Shown: piece after piece, positions 51,265 through 51,822 of the stretch
Layout: each line of letters begins with the position of its first letter
Numbering within the stretch: the first letter of the stretch is position 1
IMG/VR virus record: IMGVR_UViG_3300020188_000808
Coordinates: 203,784-267,783 of that record
DNA: 64,000 nucleotides
Direction: 5' to 3' (one strand)
Source: a virus
Program-made: the position numbers and the translations under genes
Notes under the pieces: model-generated
The model's database searches: none
What the model was told of the DNA's origin: nothing
What the model saw: the letters and a program-made list of their open reading frames with translations, nothing else

Positions 51265-51714
51265 CTATCCTTCATAGATCGCTGAGTTTGCTCCGTGTTC
51301 GGCACATTCTACCTTTACACAATAACAACGACCGTCTGTTGCTTCACGAATCAGTTTGTCAGCAAAGTAAAATGCGTGTTCTGCAAACTTCTCTGCACCT
51401 ACACCGCCAAACTCTCTTACTTCACACAAGCCTTTGTCTTGTAGATCATAAAAGTCTTGTTTGTGCGGATCGTTAAAGTCTACACAAGTCTTATGATCAA
51501 AACTATCTTCTAACCAAGCCTTCAAAGGCTTTAGTCCGCCAAAGTCGACTGCCCAGTTTTTATTGTCTAGATGATCACATCCAAATGTAAATGTAAATGC
51601 TAGACTGTAACCGTGTAGCAAATGGCAATGTGAATGATCTGCGTTAGGTTGTCTAAAGACTGCCGAAAGACCAATGTTGTGTCCGTAATGTTTTGTACTA
51701 TAATGTTTTCCCAT
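51265..51714 (-). CDS. QueD/6-pyruvoyl-tetrahydropterin synthase family protein
   Basis: 149 residues, T-fold. HCHLLHGYSLAFTF matches the CxxxHGH motif (C30, H34, G35) and FDHKTCVDFNDP and VKVECAEHGANSAIYEG the Asp/His and Glu substrate motifs. Two usual zinc ligands differ: the first His position is F20 (SAVF) and HGH reads HGY36. Several His residues (27, 29, 31) may substitute. In QueD-type enzymes this makes 6-carboxytetrahydropterin for preQ0; whether this protein does so is uncertain. The leader (51715-51786) looks structured. Confidence 0.72.
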   Translation of the reverse strand: MGKHYSTKHYGHNIGLSAVFRQPNADHSHCHLLHGYSLAFTFTFGCDHLDNKNWAVDFGGLKPLKAWLEDSFDHKTCVDFNDPHKQDFYDLQDKGLCEVREFGGVGAEKFAEHAFYFADKLIREATDGRCYCVKVECAEHGANSAIYEG

Positions 51715-51786
51715 AATATTCTCCTACTATAATGTTTTTTTTATGGGCGGCAGAGTTAGAAGGGTTGACGCCAAGTCCTTTATTCA
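51715..51786 (-). promoter_or_regulatory. Structured 5' leader of QueD-like gene, SD-sequestering pseudoknot candidate
   Basis: About 72 nt from the predicted start site to ATG 51714. GGCG pairs with CGCC across a 19-nt loop; an A-rich linker (ATAAAAAAAACAT) follows, and the Shine-Dalgarno TAGGAG can pair with CTTCTA inside the loop. This is the H-type pseudoknot plan of preQ1-type riboswitches, but the loop is longer and the core differs from the preQ1-I consensus. Confidence 0.35.
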
Positions 51787-51793
51787 TGTATAT

Positions 51794-51822
51794 ATTATAT
51801 ATGAGTTTTGTTTACTTGTCAA
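51794..51822 (-). promoter_or_regulatory. Sigma-70 promoter for QueD-like gene
   Basis: TTGACA (51822-51817), 17-nt spacer, TATAAT (51799-51794). Six nt below the -10 is an ATG (51787) opening a 29-codon ORF that overlaps the start of the QueD-like gene. Confidence 0.88.

Follow-up and report, generated by a model that had tools for sequence, protein, structure and literature searches.

Comparison of leader sequences has shown the core of the leader directly before a stand-alone phage queD-like gene to be a compact H-type pseudoknot. This leader is best explained overall as a cis-regulatory RNA of the gene, probably a metabolite-sensing riboswitch (probability about 0.55). That it is a real, conserved pseudoknot RNA associated with phage queD is close to certain; that it is cis-regulatory is very probable; that it is a riboswitch is somewhat favoured. 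In the best reading it belongs to a new class of riboswitch candidates, absent from Rfam, with a layout like that of preQ1-I but lacking several preQ1-I membership features. The class is an orphan RNA, compact, abundant and well aligned, with at least hundreds of examples. A ligand screen would be direct, because the gene association is clear and the invariant bases are defined. If the reading is true, uncultured phages regulate a gene of the 7-deazaguanine pathway with an RNA sensor of their own.

The queD-like gene and its promoter

The window (the whole stretch of DNA analysed, 64,000 nt) is the last part (203,784-267,783) of a record of 267,783 bases from a marine phage. The protein encoded at 51714-51265 is of the PTPS/QueD-like type (PF01242, E 5.6e-12; phrog_2389 'QueD-like', E 7.9e-37), as the initial annotation had proposed. 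In the six phage QueD-like sequences compared, C30, H34, D73-H74 and E108 are kept, and HGY is found at the site of HGH, the motif of cellular QueD. A single PDB sequence matched the protein (7v0f, E 0.0016).

FolE is also encoded in the record, and a 299-aa protein beside it shows 39% identity over 303 positions to an annotated phage QueE. FolE is present in 13 of 14 large relatives. No QueC was found in the record at E 0.001; weak QueC matches in 6 of the 14 large relatives (3 of these over the cut-off) may correspond to other PP-loop enzymes. The search for TGT gave 0/15, with none in the window's record. QueE adjoins queD in 10/137 loci; FolE, QueC, QueF and TGT adjoin it in 0/137. Elsewhere in the window, the phage protein encoded at 49839-49111 (minus strand) strongly matches eukaryotic-type phosphomannomutase (PF03332, E 1.5e-24). 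Another perfect sigma-70 promoter, whose -10 is preceded by TG, is found at 49190-49162 (minus strand), inside the end of that gene and 38 nt upstream of a UvdE-like gene.

The features of the gene and its leader are given below, with their basis in brackets.

51817..51822, minus strand: -35 hexamer TTGACA (sequence; promoters in relatives)
51794..51799, minus strand: -10 hexamer TATAAT (sequence; promoters in relatives)
51777..51780, minus strand: P1 5' strand AAGG (covariation; unfiltered pair count)
51774..51776, minus strand: L1 ACU (HCU) (C and U invariant in 144/144 distinct cores)
51769..51772, minus strand: P2 5' strand GGCG (covariation; unfiltered pair count)
51766..51768, minus strand: U (mismatch with C51750), then C and A pairing with G51751 and U51752 (inner P2)
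51764..51765, minus strand: L2 AC (WC), immediately 5' of the P1 3' strand (C in 144/144)
51760..51763, minus strand: P1 3' strand CCUU (covariation; unfiltered pair count)
51753..51759, minus strand: L3 CUAACUC, short form (cores compared)
51750..51752, minus strand: UGC; U and G are the inner P2 partners, C is that of the invariant U-C mismatch
51746..51749, minus strand: P2 3' strand CGCC (covariation; unfiltered pair count)
51741..51747, minus strand: P3 5' strand CCCAUAA (overlaps P2 by two C; can instead pair with the start-codon region)
51721..51725, minus strand: Shine-Dalgarno AGGAG (sequence)
51710..51716, minus strand: P3 3' strand UUAUGGG (contains the start codon AUG, 51714-51712)
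51265..51714, minus strand: queD-like gene, 149 aa, PTPS family (profile matches)

The perfect sigma-70 promoter reported by the initial annotation is present (TTGACA-17-TATAAT, 51822-51794, minus strand, 12/12 consensus letters), as is the leader of about 72 nt; transcription would start near 51787. When the 70 nt upstream of distinct relatives were examined, promoters of 10-12/12 letters were found in 98/135 (57 perfect), compared with 5/135 in shuffled upstream sequences. The distance from the end of the -10 to P1 is 6-24 nt in these 98 relatives. Since the promoters lie just before P1, the transcript begins at queD and has this RNA at its 5' end or close to it. The A-rich linker described earlier is a spacer that varies between relatives, and some of its bases can pair with the start codon. 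In the window this spacer exceeds that of a near relative (L007) by a run of A, and a direct repeat, AAAACATTATAGTA, flanks the start codon on both sides (51738-51696, minus strand).

Pseudoknot core and its occurrence

In the window, P1 is formed by 51780-51777 with 51763-51760 and P2, which is interrupted, by 51772-51769 with 51749-51746. P2 has 3-6 bp, followed by a U-C mismatch that is invariant and by the inner pairs C-G and R-Y; it encloses WC, the P1 3' strand and L3. The GGCG/CGCC helix of the initial annotation is thus P2, and it covaries in relatives. The pseudoknot proposed there also exists, with a different second helix: AAGG with CCUU (P1) in place of a loop paired with the Shine-Dalgarno sequence. 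P1 occurs as GAGG/CCUC, GUGG/CCAC, AAGG/CCUU, GCGG/CCGC, UCGG/CCGA and GUAG/CUAC; the outer pair is lost where CAGG or UAGG faces CCUU. L3 has a long form, NNUAAAHAYUC, in most relatives; three consecutive A are found in most long forms and two in the short form of the window. The window has a single copy of the 33-nt core, and none was seen in 100 shuffles.

Folding of the window leader alone is no better than that of shuffles (z +1.0); the evidence for structure is therefore comparative. In 50 diverse cores (alignment columns 1-4/24-27 for P1, 14-18/42-46 for P2), 94.1% of the P1 and P2 cells are paired versus 66.0% (sd 1.6) after shuffling. The covariation score is 0.686 versus 0.181 (sd 0.020), with 0.04-0.24 for slid registers, and 0.629 versus 0.183 when the inner P2 pairs are added. 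Both sides change in 8 of 9 pairs (121 such cells versus 42.6 shuffled). The alignment check for compensatory changes suggested earlier thus yielded many, partly in a helix other than the one drawn. A structure-blind mutual-information scan placed modelled pairs at all of ranks 1-6 (2-26, 18-42, 21-39, 16-44, 17-43, 1-27). It also found an R (L2)-Y (L3) pair missing from the first drawing (A-U 102, G-C 42 of 144), which is why P2 is drawn as a longer helix with the U-C mismatch, C-G and R-Y.

Pair counts from the first collection (A1) are inflated by its filter, which kept cores with at least three Watson-Crick P1 pairs and three contiguous P2 pairs and excluded leaders mismatched at the first P2 pair. 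The count was repeated without pairing filters on 231 anchored distinct leaders, the P1 5' strand being set at the best-pairing GHCU anchor, a choice that leans slightly towards P1: P1 has 4/4 pairs in 201 and at least 3 in 230. P2 pairs 1-4 are formed in 214, 231, 230 and 206 of these leaders, the exceptions at the first pair being A-A 13, A-C 3 and C-C 1. The R-Y pair is formed in 231/231 (A-U 171, G-C 59, G-U 1). The anchor is absent from 11 of 242 distinct matches: 7 within coding sequence in the author's reading, 4 of an insertion subfamily. The second P1 pair covaries (AU/UA/CG). On a quick QueD tree (129 proteins) at least 22 switches of pair type are needed for it, and at least 31, 33 and 41 for P2 pairs 1-3, counts that gene-leader recombination could inflate.

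The insertion subfamily (L201, L244, L264, L300, L030, all before queD) has a long L1 (GTGGATGG...), and extra bases on the P2 3' side offer the rival partners CAAG/CTTG and AAGGC/GCCTT. Model R2 matches only the core of its members (four loci tried: L030, L201, L244, L264).

Eight positions are both invariant and unpaired in the 50 diverse rows: C51775, U51774, U51768, C51764, A51756, U51754, C51753 and C51750. They lie in L1, L2, L3 and the U-C mismatch, and such bases would be expected in a binding pocket.

At least 80 loci were obtained when IMG/VR was searched with the QueD protein. In most of the 80 listed, the motif RAGGACUU-NNCG-UCRWC-CCUY-...YUCYGC-CGNN is found just before the Shine-Dalgarno sequence. 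Inspection of the leaders of close QueD relatives L021-L023, L025, L039, L040, L047, L065 and L072 showed it to be absent there, and models R1 and R2 gave no match in seven of these loci (L021, L025, L039, L040, L047, L065, L072).

Three gene-blind DNA-pattern scans of IMG/VR gave at least 119, 120 and 120 loci. Among the matches listed for the first (strict) pattern, 118/119 precede queD; the remaining one ends after 5 nt. Among those listed for the second and third patterns, a rule requiring contiguous pairs finds both helices in 101 and 88, and 100 and 83 of these precede queD. Six both-helix loci are not placed before queD. Four (L224, L345, L414, L418) end within 150 nt. L339 carries the same leader RNA before an ORF starting MTWIIDKTFEFCYGHRVHTQ, with the contig end at 243 nt, and from its sequence this ORF looks like a different PTPS-type enzyme; L340 is likely a chance match. 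The matches listed without contiguous helices number 19 and 32, of which 8 and 26 still precede queD. The 26 of the third pattern all have the same spacer start and are mismatched at the first P2 pair; the non-contiguous matches of the second are insertion variants and mismatches. True copies with enough downstream DNA all precede a queD-type gene, and they are nearly always in viral DNA.

The long-form pattern, which covers that form only, matched 40 stretches among 11.3 million bacterial and archaeal genome contigs. Helix counting was applied to all 40 and model R1 to 15. The model supports three: L453 (Bacteroidetes MAG) and L461 and L475 (one Rickettsiales MAG), which may be phage contigs. 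MPFYSTKTYGHN, a QueD start, is found behind the motif in L461 and L475. The two methods disagree twice: L453 lacks a contiguous P2 (first pair A-A) yet matches R1, whereas L445 passes helix counting and does not match R1. Among cultured phages, blastn with 45 nt gave only one chance match of 17 nt. In 11 stretches from 11 of the 105 isolate records with a queD, no credible model match was found around queD (best E 0.4, inside a gene); the queD of the isolate phages examined mostly lies against a neighbouring gene or overlaps it, and the neighbour often belongs to the same pathway. No second copy of the leader was found in the window's own record, or before folE or queE.

Start-codon pairing and possible function

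In 138 distinct leaders, the 12 nt from the P2 3' strand onward were compared with the start regions of their own and of other leaders. Their mean duplex energy is -6.62 versus -4.67 (sd 0.16) when permuted (0/5000), permutations that ignore relatedness. A slide control, which answers relatedness only in part, has its optimum at the start codon: the mean goes from about -6.7 to -1.5 at +12 to +16, and drifts back to about -2.5 to -3.8 beyond +24. By subfamily, this pairing (P3) has -9.5 in NNGUCA (n=45), -7.4 in CGC (n=45) and -4.05 in GCAU (n=6). The CACUC subfamily (n=13) has -4.1 at the start codon and -7.5 with the Shine-Dalgarno stretch (ACUCC/GGAGU), and the CGU subfamily (29/138) gives no P3 signal (own -2.8 versus -2.4 elsewhere). 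The P2 3' strand can thus pair with the start codon or the Shine-Dalgarno sequence in 4/5 subfamilies (109/138 leaders), partially in the window. Codons 2-3 are under coding constraint, which bears on P3.

Examples of P3 are AAGUCAUC/GAUGACUU (L324), GUCAUCUU/AAGAUGAC (L409), CCAUUAUUA/UAAUAAUGG (L063) and CCCAUAA/UUAUGGG in the window. L326, L358, L404 and other NNGUCA leaders have a conserved spacer, GUCAUCAAACUUGCUAC or ...CUUACUC, before GGAG...; it is longer than P3 needs and may be a second element of the start hairpin.

P2 and P3 compete, because P3 uses bases of the P2 3' strand (all five in L324, two in the window). That this strand pairs with the start region only incompletely while P2 is formed is supported statistically for most subfamilies. 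In pseudoknot-free folding with P2 enforced, a comparison biased in that loop bases are barred from pairing outward, start-codon pairing falls in 105/138 leaders and mean Shine-Dalgarno pairing falls in every subfamily, CGU included (0.78 to 0.26). In the window the paired probability of the start codon rises, from 0.86 to 0.97, because five of the seven P3 pairs can persist beside an intact P2. Competition by P3 means that formation of the knot should favour translation. Given a switch, the direction ON has a slight preference; as modelled from the window's own leader, the direction is ambiguous.

In the proposed mechanism, queD has a sigma-70-type promoter of its own, the RNA lies between this promoter and the ribosome-binding site, and a small molecule would bind between P1 and P2 and stabilise the knot. 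The stabilised knot would free the initiation region and raise queD translation (ON switch). The ligand would have a guanine-like face: a pterin, for instance 7,8-dihydroneopterin triphosphate (made by FolE and used by QueD), or a 7-deazaguanine. This face is weakly suggested by analogy, because the invariant C before the P1 3' strand sits at the face-reading base of preQ1-I, and because genes for FolE and a QueE-like protein are also present in the phage. A more specific version is tentative: a class essentially confined to phages that senses an early intermediate from GTP to 7-deazaguanine (such as the FolE product) and switches queD ON, by which a virus would control its own base-making pathway through feed-forward sensing. 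Such a class would have arisen from the preQ1-I fold or converged on it, its pocket having been remodelled.

A translational operator bound by a phage or host protein (QueD or a general repressor, for instance), with no small ligand, is rather unlikely. An operator, too, could be expected before a single gene and almost exclusively in phage DNA, as the leader is, and pseudoknot operators of T4-like phage proteins are known; eight invariant unpaired bases at one junction, however, resemble a small-molecule pocket. Neither these bases nor the alternative start-codon pairing of most subfamilies would be needed if the leader were a constitutive 5'-end structure, one that made the mRNA more stable or aided translation without sensing; this explanation is improbable, although the position of the RNA, at the very 5' end expected for the transcript, fits it. 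It is also unlikely that the leader is a divergent form of preQ1-I, sensing preQ1 or preQ0 and turning queD OFF. The helices and loops have the same order, UC or AC precedes the P1 3' strand in 143/144 cores, and some members (e.g. L221) share GAGG...ACCCTCTATAAA with preQ1-I of Rossellomorea. Against it, the preQ1 models of Rfam match neither the window leader nor 8 relatives, models R1 and R2 miss preQ1-I, the UU after the P1 5' strand is absent (144 cores), the Shine-Dalgarno sequence is outside P2 and the logic of P3 points to ON.

Two further explanations, both raised by the initial annotation, are hardly credible. Pairing of the loop CTTCTA with the Shine-Dalgarno TAGGAG can form in the window with one G-U pair, but all 6/6 pairs are found in 1/138 leaders only, the mean of 3.46 pairs is close to that of permuted leaders (3.38, sd 0.05) and the same loop bases form the covarying P1. 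The other is attenuation by a leaderless 29-codon leader peptide. The ORF (51787-51698) exists and overlaps the gene start, and in the window its ATG coincides with the predicted start of transcription, but it is not conserved as a leader peptide: an ATG is found at most 25 nt upstream of the core in 61/135 leaders and reads through it in 44/135, the ATGs are spread over the three frames (27, 25, 10), and the length of the core modulo 3 is distributed 77/39/22 in 138.

Comparison with known RNAs

Rfam 15 gave nothing relevant for the window and the leader, whether at gathering thresholds or with E as high as 10; two matches, to Yfr20 (antisense strand, E 1.5) and to Mu-gpT-DE (E 4.5), are attributed to chance. 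Among the titles listed in literature searches, none describes a queD leader RNA; an unnamed entry in a large candidate list could exist. Term searches in the available text of PMC11109978 and PMC8040213 gave no mention of queD, queuosine or pyruvoyl, and that of PMC11109978 no mention of phage.

The manA and wcaG motifs are described as orphan structured leaders of metabolic genes in T4-like marine phages (PMC2864571). Their genes differ from that of the queD leader, and neither has an Rfam match in the window or the leader (E up to 10). The second-class THF riboswitch (folE motif) is described as a simple leader RNA of a gene of the GTP-to-pterin pathway (PMC6800512); the gene differs, and there is no Rfam match. 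PreQ1-II and preQ1-III are pseudoknots that sense a product of the same pathway (PMC11625349). They share a pseudoknot with the queD leader, differ in topology by their description in that source (HLout) and give no Rfam match.

PreQ1-I (RF00522; types I, II, III) is closest in layout. Both RNAs are small H-type pseudoknots that lie in leaders of 7-deazaguanine pathway genes and have the order P1a-L1-P2a-L2-P1b-L3-P2b, and P1 is often GAGG/CCUC in both. In preQ1-I, UC (type I) or AC (types II, III) lies directly 5' of the P1 3' strand, as described in PMC11625349. The queD leaders share this feature (L2 is AC in 99, UC in 44 and CC in 1 of 144 cores), and their L3 contains A and starts UAUAAA or UUUAAA in many. 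Genuine preQ1-I riboswitches were taken from bacterial genomes of Rossellomorea as a reference (L489, L490, L491 and L493 over the RF00522 cut-off, L494 and L495 below it), with GAGG...ACCCTCTATAAA at the match. The phage loci L221 and L231 share this element in register, a resemblance in sequence that is suggestive.

The differences are as follows. The UU that follows the P1 5' strand in types I and III is replaced by ACU (119), UCU (20) or CCU (5) in 144 cores. P2 is interrupted by the invariant U-C mismatch, followed by C-G and R-Y, and L3 has an invariant UC. In translational preQ1-I the Shine-Dalgarno sequence is in P2, whereas it is downstream of P2 in the queD leaders listed. The queD leader stands before a phage queD, and its competing start-codon hairpin suggests ON. 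Models R1 and R2 gave no match in 8 loci holding preQ1-I (E up to 10 and 1), and no preQ1 match of Rfam was obtained at E up to 10 in the window leader or 8 relatives. The likeness to preQ1-I noted by the initial annotation, together with its remark that the core is not an exact match, thus stands for layout and does not extend to the membership features (UU, Shine-Dalgarno in P2, Rfam). The queD leader may work like a preQ1-I switch; it is not classed as preQ1-I, because the models miss each other and the UU element and the Shine-Dalgarno placement differ. The two RNAs offer a natural comparison of how a pseudoknot pocket changes specificity.
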